Positions 472-7,678 of a DNA stretch of 25,134 bases are shown here, piece after piece (the first letter of the stretch is position 1; every line of letters starts with the position of its first letter). The position numbers were made by a program, and so were the translations under genes. The stretch is from a virus, in IMG/VR virus record IMGVR_UViG_3300033571_002560, positions 1-25,134 of that record, one strand, 5' to 3'. The notes below the pieces were generated by a model. That model was not told the DNA's origin, made no database searches, and was given only the letters and a program-made list of their open reading frames with translations.

Positions 472-2076
472 TTAGTAGTTAAAGTTACCGACTCTCTCGT
501 TACCGATCAACTCAGGGTGCAGGTAATCGGCAGCAGCACCGATGATTCTGATGACACGGTAGAATCTGCTGGCAGGCTGAATAGCAGCCTTGCCATACCG
601 GGTCATAATACCCTTTCTTGGCTGGAATGAGCCAGGATCAGTTACGGTTGGCAGTGGCATGAGTGGAACATACGGGCAGTAGACGAATCCACCATCCAGT
701 GGGCTTCCACCGTTGTAGCCGATGATTAGCTCATCCTCTGGGAACAGAGGATCAACAATCAGATCGTACTTGCCAGCGAACTTACCCTTGTACTCGATCT
801 TAGCACCCATGTTAGTGGGACCAGCATCGGCAGGAAGTCCACCTTCAAGCTTCGCGGCTGACTCAAGCATTGAAGCGATGATTGGTGACGTAATAATTAC
901 GTTACCTGGGCCACGCATTGTGGTCTTGTAAATATCTTGGCTAGCGAAATTAATCATAGCCAACATATTGCTGTACCGCTGGCCTACATGCTGTGGAGCA
1001 TAGTTAGCACCTAGGAATCTAGCAAGATCAACAACGTAAATGTTACGCTCTGGGCTAGCTAGTGAGGTTGCACCAAAACCGGCTCCGGTATTACCCCATG
1101 AGAATGAACCTGGGTTCCACTCTTGCGCTCCGTTGGTTCCTACTGTCTTGCCGTAGTAATTGCTTCCGAAAGAATTGGAGTTAGCCAGTGGATCAAGTGA
1201 CTTTGCATTCCATCCGCCAATAGAATTGGTAGTACCAGCGAAACCATAAGCAACCATTCGGATATCTTCGATTAGCTCACGATCAATCTCAAGTGAAAGC
1301 TCTTTGCTGAGTAGCTCAGTAAGCTCCCGCTCTAGATCAAGATTGTGATAAGCCTTAAGGTCTTGTGAAGCCTCAATCGTCCAAAGTGCTCTCATCTTGC
1401 GAGTAAGAGCTACAACTGGCTGTTGCTCAATGTGGAACTGAACTTCTGGAATTCCAGTGCCGTCTAGACGCTCACCGGCTGATACAACCCAGCCTAGAGT
1501 AGTTGATGGATCAGGGAATGAAGCAATTCTACCACCGTAAGTGGTTGAGGGTGAACCTCTAGTGTTGCTTAGTACTGAGGAAAGGTTAACTCCACCAAGA
1601 GCAGTAGCTCCACCAAGAGCAGTAGCTTGGAAGTAATCAAATCTTCCGCTGTTGGTTCCAGTCGTATCAATTGGGAACGTAGCAGTCACGTTGTTAACAT
1701 TGTACGTCAGGTTAAACTTGCTATAAACAGTTTGCTGTGATCCACCGCTCCATCTGCTGTTGCCAAGATAGAAAATTTGGCTTACAGGAGCATCCATTGG
1801 CTGAGTTGAGCCGATGTAGTTGAATACTAGGTTTGGGTAAACTCTACGAACGAGAGGGAACGCAAACTTCTGGAATACGCCGATGTTACCGACAGTGGTT
1901 CCACCTTGGCTTACGACTTCTTCGTTCATCCGATTGCTCTCGGCTAATACAGCCTTAGCTTGGTTCTCAAGCAGTTGAGCAGTAACCCGAGCGGTATATT
2001 CATTCTTGATACCGTCAAGGGCTTTTGACCACTTCTGAACTAGTTCAGGTGATCCTCCGATTTTTGATACGTCCAT
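472..2076 (-). CDS. gp23: Major capsid protein, T4 gp23-like
   Basis: 534 aa, close to T4 gp23 (521 aa). It forms the hexamer shell of the prohead and is matured by the gp21-type protease encoded just upstream. Residues 59-82 (GTTVGNIGVFQKFAFPLVRR followed by VYPN) and the QPMDAPVSQIFYLG segment (92-105) correspond to the conserved gp23 pattern 'FQKFAFPLVRRVYPNL...QPM..P...IF'. Residues 223-280 carry the typical long acidic helix (RALWTIEASQDLKA, then LERELTELLSKELSLEIDRE). Two L-x-E sequences near the N-terminus, LLE(37) and LAE(46), fit the known T4 prohead protease consensus (I/L)-x-E, so the mature protein probably begins at Ser47 or Asn38. A perfect tandem repeat duplicates the hexapeptide ATALGG at residues 151-162. 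The start is fixed by a strong AAGGAGA 5 nt upstream. The gene follows the scaffold gene by 19 nt and is followed by a terminator. Identification is secure; exact relatives are not determined. Confidence 0.95.
   Translation of the reverse strand: MDVSKIGGSPELVQKWSKALDGIKNEYTARVTAQLLENQAKAVLAESNRMNEEVVSQGGTTVGNIGVFQKFAFPLVRRVYPNLVFNYIGSTQPMDAPVSQIFYLGNSRWSGGSQQTVYSKFNLTYNVNNVTATFPIDTTGTNSGRFDYFQATALGGATALGGVNLSSVLSNTRGSPSTTYGGRIASFPDPSTTLGWVVSAGERLDGTGIPEVQFHIEQQPVVALTRKMRALWTIEASQDLKAYHNLDLERELTELLSKELSLEIDRELIEDIRMVAYGFAGTTNSIGGWNAKSLDPLANSNSFGSNYYGKTVGTNGAQEWNPGSFSWGNTGAGFGATSLASPERNIYVVDLARFLGANYAPQHVGQRYSNMLAMINFASQDIYKTTMRGPGNVIITSPIIASMLESAAKLEGGLPADAGPTNMGAKIEYKGKFAGKYDLIVDPLFPEDELIIGYNGGSPLDGGFVYCPYVPLMPLPTVTDPGSFQPRKGIMTRYGKAAIQPASRFYRVIRIIGAAADYLHPELIGNERVGNFNY
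1591..1626 (-). repeat. Perfect 18-bp tandem duplication inside the capsid gene
   Basis: TCCACCAAGAGCAGTAGC (plus strand) occurs at 1591-1608 and again, identically, at 1609-1626. It encodes ATALGG twice in frame at capsid residues 151-162. Identity at every base, including silent positions, suggests a recent slippage event, an assembly artefact, or strong constraint. Confidence 0.9.
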
Positions 2077-2081
2077 GATTT

Positions 2082-2088
2082 TCTCCTT
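2082..2088 (-). promoter_or_regulatory. Strong ribosome binding site of the capsid gene
   Basis: AAGGAGA on the minus strand ends 5 nt before the capsid ATG (2076-2074), inside the 19-nt gap after the scaffold stop. It is the strongest SD in the window, fitting a protein needed in very high copy number. Confidence 0.85.
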
Positions 2089-2095
2089 GAAAATA

Positions 2096-2731
2096 TTAGT
2101 TAGACATCAATCTCATGACCTCTTCGGTCAAAAACTTATTGCCATGCGTCTCAGGTTTTGCGCTCTTGCGCTCTTCTAACCTTTTCCCTTGACGTTGGAA
2201 ATTTTCCTTTGAAACAACTTCAGCAGTATCAGAGAGCTTCATTGAGGTGACAGCCCGTGATTCAGCTAAATTAACCTTCGCTTGCTTAACATTCTCCTCA
2301 AGTCTCTCATTTTTATCTGATAAGACCTTCAGAACATTCTTAAGCTGTACGTTCTCCTTGAGTGAGCGATCTAGTTCCCCGGCAAGGACATCTACTTTCT
2401 TGGCTAGTGTGTCCTGCTCTAGAGCCATTAAATTAATGGCATTAACTTCGTCATCGTGAGAAAGCTCTGTAACAAATAATGACTTAACTGATTCATACAG
2501 TTGAGCATTACGATAAGTCTCATTCTCAAGCTCTAGTTCTTTAATGGCTTGCTCCTTGAGACGTTCAATCTGACCTCTTAGATAAGACTTTACCTTAACG
2601 GTAAGGTCTTCTGTCTTAGCATTAACCTCTTCCTCGATCTTCTTGTGAACCAAGGTGGCAATCTTTTCTACCGTTTCCTCGGTTAGACCGTCTGGTAACA
2701 GGCTAGCAATTTGTTCTAATGACTTGTTCAT
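2096..2731 (-). CDS. gp22: Prohead scaffold (core) protein, T4 gp22-like
   Basis: 211 aa, somewhat shorter than T4 gp22 (269 aa). It is expected to form the internal scaffold on which the capsid shell assembles and then to be degraded by the prohead protease. The sequence is almost entirely helical and charged. It has an N-terminal LPDGLTEETVEKIATLVHKK segment (residues 13-32) of the gp22 type, a long Lys/Glu coiled coil over roughly residues 30-165, and a short conserved-looking tail (FLTEEVMRLM, about 200-209). It contains several L-x-E tripeptides, such as LKE, LEE and LAE(about 155), that could be protease sites. It lies between the protease (31-nt gap) and capsid (19-nt gap) genes, the canonical 21-22-23 order. 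GGAGA lies 12 nt before the ATG. The call rests on gene order plus coiled-coil character, since gp22 proteins diverge strongly. Confidence 0.88.
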   Translation of the reverse strand: MNKSLEQIASLLPDGLTEETVEKIATLVHKKIEEEVNAKTEDLTVKVKSYLRGQIERLKEQAIKELELENETYRNAQLYESVKSLFVTELSHDDEVNAINLMALEQDTLAKKVDVLAGELDRSLKENVQLKNVLKVLSDKNERLEENVKQAKVNLAESRAVTSMKLSDTAEVVSKENFQRQGKRLEERKSAKPETHGNKFLTEEVMRLMSN

Positions 2732-2743
2732 ATAAACTATTTA

Positions 2744-2748
2744 TCTCC
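2744..2748 (-). promoter_or_regulatory. Ribosome binding site of the scaffold gene
   Basis: GGAGA (minus strand) lies 12 nt before ATG 2731-2729. It overlaps a GATAAATA string and a small palindrome (ATAAA-TAG-TTTAT, 2732-2744). The spacing is long for an SD. The GATAAATA resembles a phage late promoter box, but a promoter here would start transcription almost at the ATG, so I read the site as an RBS. Confidence 0.5.
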
Positions 2749-2762
2749 GTAGTAAAATATTT

Positions 2763-3551
2763 TTACTTTTTTCTTGGACCATGCTTTCTAGCGGTTTTTA
2801 TTATTGATGTTCTGACAGGCCCACCTTTCTTGCCCTTACTCGCTCTCTCTGCGACATCAAAACCTTTAGGGTCATCATCATCTCGCCCAGCGGCTCGATT
2901 TGATCTTCTAGCTATAGTATCACCCTTAACTTCATCTACTTTATTTAATTTAGCATCAATTTTCTGCTCTAGAAGCTTGAGGAAGTATCTTTCGCTAACA
3001 ACATTTCTAATTGTTGATTCAATTATTCTCTTATCTCTAGTTAACTGTTTTGATTCAGCTAAAGTAGGATAAGCTCCACGAGTTGAGGGGTCAGCAACAA
3101 TATCAAAAGTAACTAACTTAAAGTCTTCGTTTACTGTCTTGTAATCGCCCTTAGACTCGCTTAGGGTTCCCATACCACGGCTTGAAATTCCAATTTTAAC
3201 TCCACCCTCGATAAGGCCTTGAACAACCTTTCCAGCAGGAGTTGGTAGAATTTCAGCTTCGCCGATTACTTCTTTACCTTCCATCCAAAGACCAGTAATA
3301 AGGTGGGAAGCATTTGACAGCTTAACCATGTCGTAGGTTGGGTGATCTAGTTCACCTACAAGTCTACGATCCTTGATTGATTCGTTTAAAGACTTGATTG
3401 CACCTTCAAGAACTTTCTGGGGGTAGACTCTACGGTTATTGTTGGCTTCATCCGCACGTTGAAAAATACCGCGAACTTTTAGAGGGCCTGTCTTGCCCTC
3501 ATTTATTACGCGCATATTTTGGAGAATAAAGACATCTTGAAGTTGTTGCAT
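2763..3551 (-). CDS. gp21: Prohead maturation protease, T4 gp21-like
   Basis: 262 aa from ATG 3551. It is a serine protease of the prohead core that cleaves scaffold, core and capsid proteins after (I/L)-x-E. Key segments are RRVYP near residue 41, VGELDHP with His70, GISSRGMG with Ser123/Ser124, and FDIVADPS with Asp150/Asp154. These are the conserved blocks of the gp21 family: the GELDHP His, the SSRG nucleophile region and the D-x-V-x-D-P-S block. PTLAE at 162-166 is a candidate self-cleavage site that would remove a Lys/Arg/Asp-rich tail (167-262) ending ARKHGPRKK. The frame extends upstream to a GTG at 3590 inside the preceding gene, but that start has no SD. ATG 3551 follows the preceding stop by 1 nt and gives a family-like N-terminus (MQQLQDVFILQNMRVINEGK), so I choose it. 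Its SD (GGGG) is weak. Confidence 0.93.
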   Translation of the reverse strand: MQQLQDVFILQNMRVINEGKTGPLKVRGIFQRADEANNNRRVYPQKVLEGAIKSLNESIKDRRLVGELDHPTYDMVKLSNASHLITGLWMEGKEVIGEAEILPTPAGKVVQGLIEGGVKIGISSRGMGTLSESKGDYKTVNEDFKLVTFDIVADPSTRGAYPTLAESKQLTRDKRIIESTIRNVVSERYFLKLLEQKIDAKLNKVDEVKGDTIARRSNRAAGRDDDDPKGFDVAERASKGKKGGPVRTSIIKTARKHGPRKK

Positions 3552-3552
3552 A

Positions 3553-3963
3553 TTACTTACTACCCCAATACTTTTTGTTCTTTTTTGCACCTGAGTGCCG
3601 GGTCATAGTGCGGACGGCATACTTTTTAACATCTTTAAATGATGCTGGGATAGAGCCGGGAGAGAATCCCTTGGCAACTCGGCCACCTACCATTTGCTCA
3701 TCATCCTTCCCCCACTTTCTCTTAGTAACTACATAAAGGCGATCTGCGGCTTTAGTGGAGAAAATCTGACCCATGTATCCGTTCTTAAGAGCGTCGGTGA
3801 TTGAATTGTAAACTCTAACTCTGGACTTGCCTGGGGTTGTATGGGCTTTCTTCATATTAGAGCCTTGAATTGCGGCTCTACCCTCTTTTGACCCCTTTCC
3901 CTTTTCCGTCTTGCGTTCAACTAACTGAGAAGCTTCATTAAGTAATTCAATTAAATTAACCAT
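3553..3963 (-). CDS. Small basic protein of the head block, function unknown
   Basis: 136 aa, strongly basic (Lys/Arg runs at about 18-26 and 117-136, ending GAKKNKKYWGSK). It opens with an amphipathic helix (LIELLNEASQLVERK). A central segment, MGQIFSTKAADRLYVVTKRK, looks like a small folded domain. I do not recognise the family. It overlaps the preceding gene by 8 nt (ATGGTTAA) and is followed after 1 nt by the protease start, so the three are surely co-translated. A purine-rich AAAGAGAAAG before the ATG may serve as SD. By position it could be a second prohead-core or internal head protein, comparable to the small T4 genes 67/68 that sit before 21. The high positive charge would suit packing with DNA or with the acidic neighbour encoded two genes earlier. 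That role is inference only. Confidence 0.8.
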   Translation of the reverse strand: MVNLIELLNEASQLVERKTEKGKGSKEGRAAIQGSNMKKAHTTPGKSRVRVYNSITDALKNGYMGQIFSTKAADRLYVVTKRKWGKDDEQMVGGRVAKGFSPGSIPASFKDVKKYAVRTMTRHSGAKKNKKYWGSK

Positions 3964-4375
3964 ACTTTCTCTTTAACCTGTTGATGCAGCTACTTAACTT
4001 ACTATTTTTCTTAGGTTTTCCCAAAGTATTAGTTCCGATATTTCCGACCGTAGTAGTTCCAGGGGACATCTCACTTAGTAATTGTTTAGCTTCAGTCATT
4101 AATGAAGATAAACGCCCAATAAGATTCTCTAGTCTATTTTCAGTTGATTCTTGTATCTTTTGGACTTTCTTAGGGGCTTGCTTCTTTTCACCTAGGACCA
4201 TTGATACATAATCATTAGGAACTTTAATTTTACTGATATCCGGGGCATTCAATGATTGAGTAGTAGATTCCTTCAAAGCAGGCTTTAAAGACTCTGAAGG
4301 ATTTTTCGCCATGTCCTTTAATATGTCCATGGCAAAATTACCTACCGAAATATCAGGAAATTTATTATCGCTCAT
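3956..4375 (-). CDS. Prohead core-like protein with TTVGNIG motif
   Basis: 139 aa. The N-terminal 75 residues are polar and probably extended (MSDNKFPDISVGNFAMDILK...). A helix follows at about 79-103 (ENRLENLIGRLSSLMTEAKQ), then MSPGTTTVGNIGTNTLGK (103-120) and a basic tail (KLSSCINRLKRKYG). LLSE(102) just before MSPG, LGE(63), LKE(36) and IQE(76) match the (I/L)-x-E prohead protease consensus. The TTVGNIG heptamer recurs exactly in the capsid protein (residues 60-66), also a little downstream of an L-x-E site. Position two genes before the protease suggests an internal prohead core protein, like T4 gp67/gp68. The ATG at 4375 has no adjacent SD but is preceded by a hairpin that may bring GAGG close (see 4376-4405). 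It overlaps the next gene by 8 nt. Coding is certain; the core role is a positional inference. Confidence 0.85.
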   Translation of the reverse strand: MSDNKFPDISVGNFAMDILKDMAKNPSESLKPALKESTTQSLNAPDISKIKVPNDYVSMVLGEKKQAPKKVQKIQESTENRLENLIGRLSSLMTEAKQLLSEMSPGTTTVGNIGTNTLGKPKKNSKLSSCINRLKRKYG

Positions 4376-4405
4376 TCAGTTAACTAACTGAGAACAGTTA
4401 GCCTC
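4376..4405 (-). promoter_or_regulatory. Hairpin-bridged ribosome binding site for the 4375 start
   Basis: On the minus strand GAGG (4405-4402, overlapping the previous TGA stop) is followed directly by a perfect 7-bp hairpin, CTAACTG-TTCT-CAGTTAG (4401-4384). Eight nucleotides (TTAACTGA) then separate it from the ATG. Unfolded, the SD-to-ATG spacing is 26 nt, too far to work. Folded, it becomes about 8 nt. A similar arrangement is documented at the T4 gene 26-25 junction. A competing 5-bp hairpin (CAGTT-AGTT-AACTG, 4390-4377) uses the same middle arm, so two alternative folds are possible. There is no U-tract, so it is not a terminator. Confidence 0.5.
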
Positions 4406-4865
4406 ACTTACCCATCTTGGGGCCTTTCGTTGAAGATGAAGCTTTGCCGCTCATCTTCTGCTTAAGAAAGGAGGGCATCTTCTTGCGGCTAGCCTCAGCA
4501 ACCTGATCTAGCTCATCATCAGCGTCAGCGTCCTCAGCAAGTTCCTCACCCTCAAACTCCTCATCTGATTCAGTTAGTTGAGCCATTTCGTCAATTATGT
4601 TAATCATTAGATCAACGTGCTCTGATAGCTGGTCATCGCTAATTGGCTTCTCTAGATGTGACTCGCAAAGTGGGCAGACATGCTCGGCGTCAACTTGCTC
4701 GCCTTCCTGAATCTCATCTTGGACTTCCTCTTGAGCTTTCTCTTGAGCTTCATCAGCATGATCCTCGGAAACCTCGGTATTCTCATTTAATCTAACGCCA
4801 GTCTTTCCCCAGAAAGCCTGGGAAAGGATACCGTCAACTTCTTCCTTAAGTACGTCTCTTTTCAT
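4404..4865 (-). CDS. Acidic prohead-core-like protein with CPLC/His cluster
   Basis: 153 aa. Residues 30-62 and 97-124 are dominated by Glu and Asp. Between them lies HVCPLCESHLEKPISDDQ followed by LSEH, placing Cys64, Cys67, His70 and His83 in a layout that could bind a metal ion, though it is not a standard C2H2 spacing. The C-terminus turns basic (SRKKMPSFLKQKMSGK, ending KGPKMGK). LKE(8), LNE(28) and LTE(99) are candidate (I/L)-x-E cleavage sites. In T4 the small, very acidic gp67 occupies this place before 68-21-22-23 and is chopped into internal peptides; this protein may be its positional counterpart. It is the first gene after the 75-bp gap, with a CATAAATA box about 33 nt and AAGG 10 nt upstream of the ATG. 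Coding is secure from length, packing and composition; function is inferred. Confidence 0.85.
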   Translation of the reverse strand: MKRDVLKEEVDGILSQAFWGKTGVRLNENTEVSEDHADEAQEKAQEEVQDEIQEGEQVDAEHVCPLCESHLEKPISDDQLSEHVDLMINIIDEMAQLTESDEEFEGEELAEDADADDELDQVAEASRKKMPSFLKQKMSGKASSSTKGPKMGK

Positions 4866-4940: not shown

Positions 4941-5255
4941 TTAGTTCACAAATACTTTATTAGTAGGGTTTCCTGTAGTTGTATCCCCGCATGATAACTG
5001 AGTTCCAGCATAAGCTAACTTTAATTTTGAAGGACCTACAGAAACATTAGTGCTACCTATTACGACTACTGGAGCGTGAGCATCATTTCCGCACGTTGTA
5101 GGGGTATAAGCGTCTCCAACAACAACCACAGCGGCTTTAGATGGTCCAATAAACACTTGAGATGCAGCCCCTATACCATTAGTTTTTAATAAATGATCTA
5201 CTGGGCTATGGCAATGACCTAAAGTTAAGTCTAAAATTGTGGTAATTAATGGCAT
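4941..5255 (-). CDS. PAAR-type baseplate spike tip protein
   Basis: 104 aa. PAAR proteins form the sharp, metal-stabilised cone at the tip of the central spike of contractile tails (T4 gp5.4) and type VI secretion systems. The sequence has the small beta-rich, Gly/Val/Pro-patterned character of the family. It includes GIGAASQVFIGPSKAAVVVV (27-46), GDAYTPTTCGNDAH (47-60), APVVVIGSTNVSVGPSK (61-77) and AGTQLSCG (83-90). His14, Cys15, His16, Cys55, His60 and Cys89 are candidates for the buried metal site. The frame stays open up to 5297, but that ATG has no SD and lies inside the previous gene. ATG 5255 overlaps the previous stop as TAATG and has AGGAGA 9 nt upstream, so it is the better start. 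There is no fused effector domain. It is the last gene of the tail block, and no gp5 or gp27 gene lies next to it in this window. Confidence 0.88.
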   Translation of the reverse strand: MPLITTILDLTLGHCHSPVDHLLKTNGIGAASQVFIGPSKAAVVVVGDAYTPTTCGNDAHAPVVVIGSTNVSVGPSKLKLAYAGTQLSCGDTTTGNPTNKVFVN

Positions 5256-7678
5256 TAAGGTGATTCTCCTGGGAATGTCTGGGCAAAATCTAACCATCTT
5301 TGAGATTCGGTTATATAAATTGGGGCTGGTGGATTTATTTGATTTTCATACTCTCCAAAGATACCGTTAGTTATTATACCTTGACCTTCATTTAATACAA
5401 ACTTAACAGGTATATCATTACTGTACCCAAATTGTAATTGATCTCTAAATAATCCAAAATTAGAGTAATTAAGTCTCCCGATGTCGTTTGAGCTAATTCT
5501 AGTAAATACATCAAACCAAGTTAATTTACCAAAAATTCCTTCTAACTCAGTTCCAATAAAATCATCTCTAATTGTTACAGCGACTTCAGTTAAACTGTTA
5601 ACCAAAGACATAAATTTACCTTCTGGAGAATTAGTTCTTAAGCTAGATGCAGGCTGTAAGTTAGTGTATTCGCCGTTAGAATAATAAGATCTATTAAAAG
5701 ATATGGAACTTGGGTTGTAAGTGTAAACAAAGCCGTGGTAATCTGGCGAGTTAAATTGTTCATATGCGCCTAAGTAATTAGTGCTAAGTTCAAAATAGAT
5801 TCTTTCTTGGTCTATTGGAGGCTTAGAAGGTTCTAAGTTAGATATATCAACAGATGCATTCCCAGCGAAGACCCGAACTACTTTGCCACCGTCATAGGAA
5901 ACTATAGATGATCGTCCGTTAAATGGATTGTGCTCGCTTCCACGCCCAGGAGTCAGTATTATACCCTGTGGTATATTCCTTAACATTATTTTGTTTCTAA
6001 AAGTAGTATTGCTTTCAAATGATCTTAAATTAAACTCTTGACATTGAAATGTAATTGTGCTAGTATCTTTTACATAATTAACAAACGGATCTCTGTAGTC
6101 TAAATTTAATTTAGTGAGATTAAATCCATTACTTTGAGAGTGGGCCAATGCTTCTTCATCTGTAACCCTTGAATAAACTGCGGATACTGTAGTAATGACT
6201 GAGTTTGGGTTTATGATGTCTTCGACTGAATCCATGTTAAGAATTAAGTACATTGGACCTACATCCGCTGATGGGTTGTAGCTAGAGCTAAACTCATGTA
6301 CGCCAGAGGGCGAAGTTACCGTAAACCTATAAGAAGTATCTGCTCCGAGTAGAGTTAGGATATTGTATCTATCTCTAATTTGGCTGAAGTATGCATTGGA
6401 TAGATCGTTGAATGTAGCTAAGGGATATATGGCACTAGTCGGATAGCTTAGGGTAGAGAAGTAATACCCCGCCCCTGCTCCGAAGGCTACAGAAGAAGGA
6501 TTGTAATTTGGTACGAATACAAAATTAAGCTGTTCAACTGGTATGCCTGCATTATTGGCGTAAAGCTGACTTACGTTACCCTCAATCTCTTGCACTTCGA
6601 TGTAAGAATTGATATCCTCAGGCAGGAACCTCATTCGTTTGAAATCGTTCTGAAGTTCTACAGGTAGTAAAGGTTGATTGTAATTAGGATTAAGTGCGTT
6701 CTGTTCGAAGATAGCAAAAGCTAAGTTTATTGTGTTAGGAGTTTCCCCTACCTCAGAAAAGTTTATGAACGGATCGTTTAATTGTCTTTCATAAACTCTT
6801 CTATAGTAATTAACGTCAACTTCGTCTAAAGTTCCTTCTACAAGATGCTGGCGTATCATCGAGTAAAATGTAGAAGGGTTTACTTGTATGTTTCCTGCAC
6901 CGTGAATATTGTTAAAGTAAGTTAATAGATTTGTATTAAGGCTTGCTACAACTTTGTTTATAGTTAAGTTATTAAAATACTTCTCATACCAGTAGGGTAG
7001 TGAATCATTTTGACGTTCCAAGAAATAAGCAACCTCTTCTGCTACTGTGTTAGCAAAAATATTAAGGTACAGGCTATTTTGTACAAAGGTAGTGTTTTGG
7101 GATGCAGGGTAATCTAAGAAGTTGTAAAATCTATTATACATGCTTATGCATGTTTGAGGATCACCAGAGGATGTAAACCCTGCAAAGGATGGGTTATCTA
7201 CGTTGATTGTAATGCTCTGTCTTTGTGGTACAGAAGATTGCAGAGTAGTGGCAATCTGAGATGAGTTTGCTACTTGATTTTGAACTGCTTGAGACTGTAT
7301 TTGATTAGTTTGCTGTGGAGTATTTTGATAATTGTTTGAGATTATTATATTTTCGGATAATTGATCCTGGGAATACCCGTTAACAGTAGAAGTAAATTCT
7401 AAATTACCTTGATTTGATGTTGTAGTTCCTATCGAAATAGAAGGAGTTATTATAATCCCAGGGAGGTTAGTAGGTGTCTGAGGTATTGAAGGGGGTATTG
7501 GAGGGGGTATTGGAGGTTCTTCCGGCGGGCAAGCTGGAACATTGAATGGAGGAGAAGGGCTTATTGCATTAGGTACAATGCTAGGAACTACAACATTAGA
7601 AGTGTTTGTAGTACGTCTAGGCTCAGTCCCAGGGAGATAATCTCCGCACTGAGATAATTGCGGAAGATTTATAGACAT
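5255..7678 (-). CDS. Large virion-associated protein with proline-rich head, unknown family
   Basis: 807 aa. I do not recognise the family. Residues 1-75 are proline-rich and low in structure, with a PPIP-type repeat at about 56-66. Residues 75-150 are rich in Asn, Gln, Ser and Thr (QNQVANSSQIATTLQSSVPQ). From about residue 155 a folded, Tyr/Phe/Asn-rich region follows, including FYSMIRQHLVEGTLDEVDVN and YYRRVYERQLNDPFINFSEVG at about 271-316 and RMRFLPEDINSYIEVQEIEG at about 347-366. No signal peptide, membrane segment or catalytic motif is evident. It follows the 796-aa gene by 1 nt and overlaps the PAAR gene as TAATG. Its SD-like element (GCGAGATAG) resembles that of the preceding gene. 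Position between fibre-like proteins and the spike tip suggests a tail or baseplate component. A proline-rich linker followed by a globular body would suit a flexible attachment, but this is inference. Confidence 0.85.
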   Translation of the reverse strand: MSINLPQLSQCGDYLPGTEPRRTTNTSNVVVPSIVPNAISPSPPFNVPACPPEEPPIPPPIPPSIPQTPTNLPGIIITPSISIGTTTSNQGNLEFTSTVNGYSQDQLSENIIISNNYQNTPQQTNQIQSQAVQNQVANSSQIATTLQSSVPQRQSITINVDNPSFAGFTSSGDPQTCISMYNRFYNFLDYPASQNTTFVQNSLYLNIFANTVAEEVAYFLERQNDSLPYWYEKYFNNLTINKVVASLNTNLLTYFNNIHGAGNIQVNPSTFYSMIRQHLVEGTLDEVDVNYYRRVYERQLNDPFINFSEVGETPNTINLAFAIFEQNALNPNYNQPLLPVELQNDFKRMRFLPEDINSYIEVQEIEGNVSQLYANNAGIPVEQLNFVFVPNYNPSSVAFGAGAGYYFSTLSYPTSAIYPLATFNDLSNAYFSQIRDRYNILTLLGADTSYRFTVTSPSGVHEFSSSYNPSADVGPMYLILNMDSVEDIINPNSVITTVSAVYSRVTDEEALAHSQSNGFNLTKLNLDYRDPFVNYVKDTSTITFQCQEFNLRSFESNTTFRNKIMLRNIPQGIILTPGRGSEHNPFNGRSSIVSYDGGKVVRVFAGNASVDISNLEPSKPPIDQERIYFELSTNYLGAYEQFNSPDYHGFVYTYNPSSISFNRSYYSNGEYTNLQPASSLRTNSPEGKFMSLVNSLTEVAVTIRDDFIGTELEGIFGKLTWFDVFTRISSNDIGRLNYSNFGLFRDQLQFGYSNDIPVKFVLNEGQGIITNGIFGEYENQINPPAPIYITESQRWLDFAQTFPGESP
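5265..5270 (-). promoter_or_regulatory. Ribosome binding site that fixes the PAAR start
   Basis: AGGAGA (minus strand), 9 nt before ATG 5255-5253, lies within the last codons of the 807-aa gene. It favours this ATG over the SD-less ATG at 5297. Confidence 0.75.
7482..7517 (-). repeat. Three 12-bp tandem repeats encoding PPIP units
   Basis: GGTATTGAAGGG (7482-7493), GGTATTGGAGGG (7494-7505) and GGTATTGGAGGT (7506-7517) stand in direct tandem on the plus strand. Read on the minus strand they encode three four-residue Pro-rich units (PPIP, PPIP, PSIP) at the N-terminal proline-rich region of the 807-aa protein. One or two base changes separate the units. Confidence 0.85.

Follow-up and report, generated by a model that had tools for sequence, protein, structure and literature searches.

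In phage T4 the prohead protease gp21 is described as cleaving after L/I-x-E (PMC9026906), and several cuts inside the capsid propeptide are a well-known T4 feature (PMC5694885). The N-terminal regions of the T4 capsid subunits are reported to be disordered in the prohead interior and to shift to the outer surface on expansion, where they form N-arms and N-fists that bind neighboring subunits and stabilize the shell (PMC9958956). The N-fist (gp23* residues 66-91) is described as stabilized by inter-capsomer contacts and as disordered in five portal-facing subunits (PMC7136217). T4-like phages are known to recruit their core and internal head proteins via short targeting sequences; by what contact a core protein meets the shell, and what occupies N-fist sites without a capsomer neighbor, seem to be open questions. 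We found no report of a core protein that copies the capsid N-terminus among open-access titles and abstracts. Here we analyzed a 25,134-base virus record (IMG/VR IMGVR_UViG_3300033571_002560; “the window” is this whole stretch, whose numbering is used throughout), in which a gp23-type capsid protein and a core-like protein of 139 amino acids (aa), encoded upstream of a gp21-type protease, share the heptamer TTVGNIG (Table 1). From phage to phage the copies in the two proteins tend to vary in step, and this suggests imitation of the capsid end by the small protein as a means of docking on the shell.

The initial annotation had placed LAE at residues 44-46 and TTVGNIG at residues 60-66 of the capsid, and LSE at residues 100-102 and TTVGNIG at residues 108-114 of the core protein. 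Both open reading frames (ORFs) and all of these residue numbers were borne out, and in the core protein a five-residue linker joins LSE to the heptamer. The capsid scores 229.6 bits against the Pfam Gp23 profile PF07068 (cut-off 24.4) and groups by profile with T4 gp23; the protease groups with T4 gp21 by the Peptidase_S77 profile. TTVGNIG is the sole heptamer common to any pair among the 17 window proteins compared, and a degenerate pattern built from it has two matches in the 25,134-base record and none in the reversed reading. The chance of a shared heptamer is about 2e-4 for the capsid/139-aa pair. Coincidence, by which a T/G/V/I-rich peptide would have arisen twice, draws on the 0.11-0.15 shared heptamers expected over all window protein pairs, and because of this expectation a single instance alone would be weak. 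It is the relatives, and not the window alone, that settle the reality of the resemblance. Recurrence and co-variation across clades, together with the controls given below, contradict coincidence at the sequence level, and we regard it as barely credible.

What recurs in the relatives is a looser element, [LIVM]xE followed by a linker and T-T-x-G-x-[IL]-G, which occurs both in the gp23-type capsid and in a small protein encoded ahead of the gp21-type protease gene. The initial annotation had taken the exact heptamer as the unit and had named its absence from either family in close relatives as grounds for refutation; this is literally the case in L001/L002 and L003/L004 (loci are cited by our labels). 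The capsid of the closest relative, L001, keeps TTVGNIG and the core of L001/L002 has TTVNNVG; the capsid of L003/L004 has TQVGNIG and the core of L003 keeps TTVGNIG; the core of L005 has TSVGTIG. The exact heptamer is not fixed, because L001, L003, and L005 differ in one protein or the other, and we rejected it as a conserved unit since the heptamer is identical in both proteins in only 3 of the 49 listed pairs (window, L078, and L083). The check that the annotation had proposed, co-occurrence and co-variation in relatives, came out positive for the looser element and negative for the exact heptamer.

Protease-anchored scans, which make up a non-exhaustive survey, covered the best 80 of 557 confirmed relatives plus 41 loci. 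An iterated profile gave 49 distinct capsid and core pairs, deduplicated by identical sequence only. The core ORF mostly lies about 500-1000 nt upstream of gp21. At its end there is often [LIVM]xE followed, after a linker, by TT-x-G-x-[IL]-G and then a basic tail; in the accompanying capsid this element stands ahead of FQKFAFP. Sixty-eight loci have distinct capsids of this type, 49 of them with more than 1300 nt upstream of gp21. A hidden Markov model (HMM) found the core ORF in 45 of these 49, and the four loci that it missed (L096, L097, L105, and L106) have a motif of the same form in the first or second ORF. When six-frame ORFs of at least 40 residues were ranked against the capsid 13-mer of their own locus, the core ORF came first in 35 of the 49 loci and second in L081, L088, L111, L156, and L157; the low ranks in L005 (9th), L015 (7th), and L155 (22nd) arise because the linker or motif differs. 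The looser element recurs in many IMG/VR contigs and is not chance. A 122-aa ORF upstream of the head block of L081 (L081:848-1213) carries IIGTGSITIGGIA and scores 36 against its own capsid end AIGTGTTTVGSLG, above the core ORF; this match is probably chance.

In sequence, the 139-aa core protein shows a predicted helix ending at [LIVM]xE, then a linker, a copy of the N-terminal element of the capsid (TT-x-G-x-[IL]-G), and last a basic tail. Its relatives came from IMG/VR contigs, in two overlapping scans that gave 5 and 13 loci. In an alignment of 36 homologs (A6; 36 of 40 chosen sequences, excluding L148, which has no motif, and the long, diverged L095, L098, and L111), E102, T108, G111, and G114 are at least 90% conserved. 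The predicted fragment past the candidate cut site has a median of 42 aa and a net charge of +9 (range +4 to +19, positive in 43 of 43), and the part ahead of the site is near neutral; in the window the fragment would span residues 103-139 (37 residues, predicted net charge +8). The first LxE in the window core is LKE34-36, and E36 is invariant in 15 homologs (A3). No PHROG or Pfam family was matched by more than one of the 36 members at E 0.01, and no convincing Pfam, PHROG, or PDB match was found for the family. Five member queries against 50,697 phage records gave nothing better than E 5 (best E-values 8, 5, and 6; two of the five without any match). In the core homologs L003:6001-6486, L010:7001-7468, L017:7001-7534, L042:3690-4136, and L088:969-1445, the basic tail contains an additional segment, approximately NPWAICHSSxGxKKxxKFERCVxxxKxKYG, of which the window core end SKLSSCINRLKRKYG looks like a worn remnant. 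In L109, L112, and L115 the element lies midway in much longer core ORFs (421, 372, and 354 residues).

Several loci have capsid and core copies that depart from the window heptamer in a related way. Capsid/core pairs include TTTQSMG/TTTQSIG in L085, TAVGDLG/TAVGSLG in L102, TGVGSLG/TGVGSIG in L112, TTVGRLG/TTVGRIS in L084, and LTPGATTVGKLG/LTPAATKVGSIG in L151, and L083 has YGPGTTTVGSIG in both proteins. Among 18 representatives with <75% capsid identity, the own-locus heptamer score is 27.8 versus 24.2 when permuted (p 5e-5, the lowest value attainable with the permutation number used), and the six residues upstream of the heptamer score 2.9 versus -1.0 (p 0.0023). Nine representatives with <65% capsid identity gave p 3e-4 for the heptamer and 0.012 for the six upstream residues. 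L109, L112, and L115 (motif earlier in a longer ORF), as well as L148 (no motif), L074 (degraded motif), and L100 (truncated), were left out of the first pair test; the first three, located by a pattern requiring an upstream [LIVM]xE, were restored for the tests with 18 and nine representatives and for the control windows. TTVGRIS, the core motif used for L084 and L101, was hand-picked over the automatic call. Without L084, L101, L085, and L086, and before L109, L112, and L115 were added, 15 representatives gave p 2.5e-4 and 0.019.

Because related clades can fake a co-variation signal, we compared the core motif with 192 variable, overlapping 13-residue windows of the capsid and gp21. These controls have a mean z of 0.06 (standard deviation 1.20, maximum 2.75), and none reaches the z of 4.69 of the capsid motif, so clade structure was rejected as the sole cause of the co-variation. 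Recent gene conversion is not indicated either, because identical codons occur at 90 of 299 identical residues in 43 pairs, when 113.8 are expected from codon usage. The co-variation does not extend into the helix ahead of the cut: the helices are alike and not own-locus specific (p 0.26).

How far the two families resemble each other beyond the motif bears on whether they simply share an ancestor. Profile comparison of the motif regions alone gave P 2e-8. The remainder without the motif gave P 0.007, with a weak second match (DISKI/DVSKI), and 0 of 100 column shuffles reach this P; the whole core against capsid residues 1-80 scored above 100 of 100 column shuffles. The motif appears to carry most of the similarity between the families, and homology of the whole propeptide was rejected because it has just the weak second match. 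Were common ancestry the whole explanation, the core's C-terminal half would derive from a copied capsid propeptide and N-fist, and the resemblance would be kept without present interaction. The profile alignment is indeed co-linear (core 46-115 with capsid 2-67), and a direct BLASTP match of the two window proteins (E 5e-4) extends back into the helix. Set against this are the weakness of the match outside the motif and the fact that an inert relic leaves unexplained both the own-locus tracking at variable positions and the conservation of E102, T108, G111, and G114. We consider shared descent alone very unlikely.

A candidate cut site precedes the element in both proteins. The 15 residues ahead of the motif contain [LIVM]xE in 45 of 46 capsids (background 0.18) and in 46 of 46 cores (background 0.50). 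The core figure is partly built in, since the automatic caller used for the core motif favored candidates with an upstream [LIVM]xE. Both proteins carry the type of site seen in gp21 substrates, in a class wider than L/I (the nearest capsid site is MNE). The initial annotation had named LAE46 as the site preceding the capsid motif. The [MVIL]xE at residues 50-52 is nearer and tracks the motif better: the matching site is [VIL]xE in most listed relatives, and the capsids of L075, L077, L078, L080, L082, L083, L092, and L093 retain the nearer [MVIL]xE and no counterpart of LAE46. We rejected LAE46, which is missing from several clades, as the only or best site; the last cut probably lies elsewhere. 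Because the T4 capsid propeptide is cut several times, LAE46 may be cut as well as MNE52.

The chief rival explanation is that the element serves protease recognition, with the gp21-type protease reading residues past the cut and co-evolving with its substrates in each lineage. The element does stand behind a candidate site in nearly all pairs, capsid and core both belong to the gp21 head block, and their linker lengths correlate (rho 0.74 in the 18 representatives, relatedness uncorrected). The linker from candidate site to motif varies from 1 to 13 residues, which is a large spread for a fixed subsite, and the motif reported for T4 gp21 is merely L/I-x-E (PMC9026906). Moreover, a third ORF near the own capsid motif is not general (judged from the two best ORFs per locus; the 122-aa ORF of L081 scores 36), and because of this other likely substrates (gp22-like, gp21, and acidic proteins) seem to be without the element. 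In the window, no motif copy was found in the 211-aa, 136-aa, and 153-aa proteins, none of which is among the two best ORFs scored against its own capsid 13-mer. Taken together, we find a protease-recognition element unlikely.

The capsid copy can be related to the T4 structure. In a phmmer comparison with solved T4 capsid chains, window capsid residues 59-66 align to gp23* 17-24, which is gp23 82-89 (the heptamer, 60-66, to gp23* 18-24 or gp23 83-89); the mature T4 chain has 456 residues and begins at 66. A profile alignment has the same register for the N-fist segment, with a gap just before it, and the stretch scores weakly in both alignments. Through this weakly scoring stretch, the capsid copy appears homologous to the N-fist segment, T4 gp23 66-91.

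Mimicry of the capsid end by the core protein is well supported at the level of sequence; cleavage of both proteins and docking are what we infer. The idea of a capsid-mimicking core protein, already put forward in the initial annotation, keeps the real resemblance, the gp21-type candidate site ahead of the element in both proteins, and the co-variation, and loses the exact heptamer and LAE46. In the reading that we propose, whose chances we judge evenly balanced, the 139-aa protein belongs to the prohead core and carries a capsid mimic that cleavage would detach and that would then dock in N-fist sites. The gp21-type protease would cut both capsid and core, exposing the element near two new N-termini. 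The capsid element would form the N-fist and lock neighboring subunits upon shell expansion, and inside the prohead the cut in the core would release a basic-tailed end resembling the N-fist. This fragment would offer the element without an attached capsid and could take up N-fist sites of the inner or expanding shell. The most plausible ones are those around the portal or the five-fold vertices that have no capsid donor, and the lysine-rich tail of the fragment would bind packaged DNA or core. The co-variation would follow from the need of both capsid and mimic to match one receiving surface.

Another alternative is a common partner other than the shell: a single scaffold, portal, or host factor would be bound by the capsid and core elements alike in the course of assembly, whether or not the cut has been made yet. 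Co-variation needs just a shared, evolving receptor, and the helices ahead of the cut are similar in general form. Against such a partner, none is indicated by any result here, and the homologous T4 capsid segment is described as having a late subunit-locking role (PMC9958956); we think this alternative improbable.

Returning to docking of a capsid mimic, we tentatively extend it to a widespread T4-like group that makes a free N-fist: a protease-cut core would provide the shell with a stand-in for the capsid locking element, joined to a tail that binds DNA. It would occupy donor-less N-fist sites or anchor DNA at the shell, and its co-evolution with the capsid would proceed residue by residue. 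If true, this would be a sequence-readable contact between a core protein and the shell. It would also give a rule for spotting core proteins in uncultured phages, namely an ORF upstream of gp21 that matches the N-terminal end of its own capsid.

A number of observations weigh against docking in N-fist sites. Because the T4 N-fist ends outside, a mimic inside the head would have to pass through to the exterior or else bind another face. AlphaFold models of both proteins are weak around the motif: the core model is extended (pTM 0.24), with a helix at 78-103 that ends at E102 and a motif of low confidence, and the capsid model is poor (mean pLDDT 54), with a helix at 26-52 that ends at E52. The core homolog L148:5291-5617 stops at the helix before the cut site and has no motif, and its capsid keeps TTVGNIG; L072 and L074 have degraded motif copies. 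Tracking is partial, as TTVGKLG-type capsids are mostly paired with TTVGMIG-like cores. With the exclusions given above, eight representatives at 65% gave p 0.087 for the heptamer, 0.065 for the upstream residues, and 0.036 for position 5. In a separate test at 65% (n=8), heptamer identity alone gave p 0.056. The 75% and 65% sets address relatedness, and the permutation is not a full phylogenetic correction. Finally, all core relatives found come from IMG/VR contigs and none from named phages, and the capsid copy is not seen in the T2 head block or the other T4-like clades examined. In 15 loci (L048-L062, among them T2, cyanophages, and phages of Vibrio, Salmonella, Campylobacter, Rhizobium, and Pseudomonas), a loose regular expression matched the capsid N-terminus in four (L051, L054, L058, and L062). 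It also matched a small protein of Flavobacterium phage vB_FspM_immuto (L052); the remaining matches, in ORFs of 250-730 residues or at an unrelated capsid position, look like chance. A direct search for an ORF resembling the own capsid end gave nothing convincing in the 7 loci with a recognized capsid among 9 named-phage loci tried, or in the 17 with a recognized capsid among the 23 loci L117-L139. Two narrow peptide patterns revealed no capsid relatives in bacterial genomes. In L148, the next reading frame opens immediately after the shortened core ORF.

The ORF list and profile matches place a T4-like head block on the minus strand of the window, in the order PAAR-like, acidic 153-aa, 139-aa, and basic 136-aa proteins, gp21-type protease, gp22-position protein, and gp23-type capsid. 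The protease ORF is open from 3590, and its start was set at MQQLQ after comparing relatives. The acidic protein has a CPLC...H cluster that could bind metal and that is also present in L001, L003, and L005. The PAAR-like protein (4941-5297, PHROG 281) lies directly upstream of the head block, and its ORF overlaps an 807-aa ORF. In a search of eight records for a second capsid gene, Gp23 profile matches were confined to one open frame per record; because these records may be incomplete, we do not claim absence of gp24.

Table 1. Features of the head block and of the capsid-like element in the window.
Feature	Position	Strand	Basis or remark
Major capsid protein, gp23 type, 534 aa	472..2076	-	PHROG 138, 2e-71; T4 gp23 chains
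Capsid copy TTVGNIG, residues 60-66	1879..1899	-	Inside segment aligned to T4 N-fist
Capsid candidate cut site MNE, residues 50-52	1921..1929	-	Nearest motif; terminates predicted helix 26-52
Capsid candidate cut site LAE, residues 44-46	1939..1947	-	Conserved in close relatives, absent in some clades
211-aa protein, scaffold gp22 position	2096..2731	-	Between gp21 and gp23; without strong family match
gp21-type prohead protease	2763..3551	-	Pfam Peptidase_S77 110 bits, cut-off 27; PHROG 207
136-aa basic protein	3553..3963	-	Between core-like protein and protease
139-aa core-like protein with capsid-like element	3956..4375	-	
Basic C-terminal tail of core, residues 115-139	3959..4033	-	Charge count
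Core copy TTVGNIG, residues 108-114	4034..4054	-	139-aa protein
Core candidate cut site LSE, residues 100-102	4070..4078	-	Terminates predicted helix 78-103
Further LxE candidate LKE in core, residues 34-36	4268..4276	-	Conserved N-terminal part
153-aa acidic protein	4404..4865	-	Upstream of core-like protein

In comparison with known systems, the window capsid element is like the T4 gp23* N-fist in that it aligns inside the N-fist, behind a gp21 cut. It differs in that a second, non-capsid protein has a copy here and that fewer residues separate the candidate cut and the motif; no structure of this clade was found. Phage T2 has genes annotated as “prohead protein” and “head scaffolding protein,” which we take to be gp67/gp68. 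Like the window 139/136-aa and 153-aa proteins, these are small proteins encoded just upstream of gp21, a position that the core family shares with the gp68/gp67 core family. T2 gp68 (141 aa) has a basic end, as do the window 139/136-aa proteins, and gp67 is acidic, as is the 153-aa protein. Homology to T2 gp68 is not indicated by hhalign against the core family alignment A6 (probability 0.7%), and the capsid copy was not seen in T2 gp68 or in gp67, the latter compared by eye only. The T4 internal proteins with a capsid-targeting sequence are likewise core proteins cut by gp21. Their targeting propeptide is described as N-terminal and 10-20 residues long (PMC5694885), whereas in the window core protein the capsid copy comes after a site at residue 102. 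The protein KNV73_gp072 of Flavobacterium phage vB_FspM_immuto (L052:6633-6854) has 73 aa and is encoded between the portal and gp21 genes. It carries VLEEMSTTGAVG followed by lysines (also given as VLEEMSTTGAVGG plus a lysine-containing end). The immuto capsid differs in having no clearly matching element; KNV73_gp072 may be a protein of this kind from a different clade.

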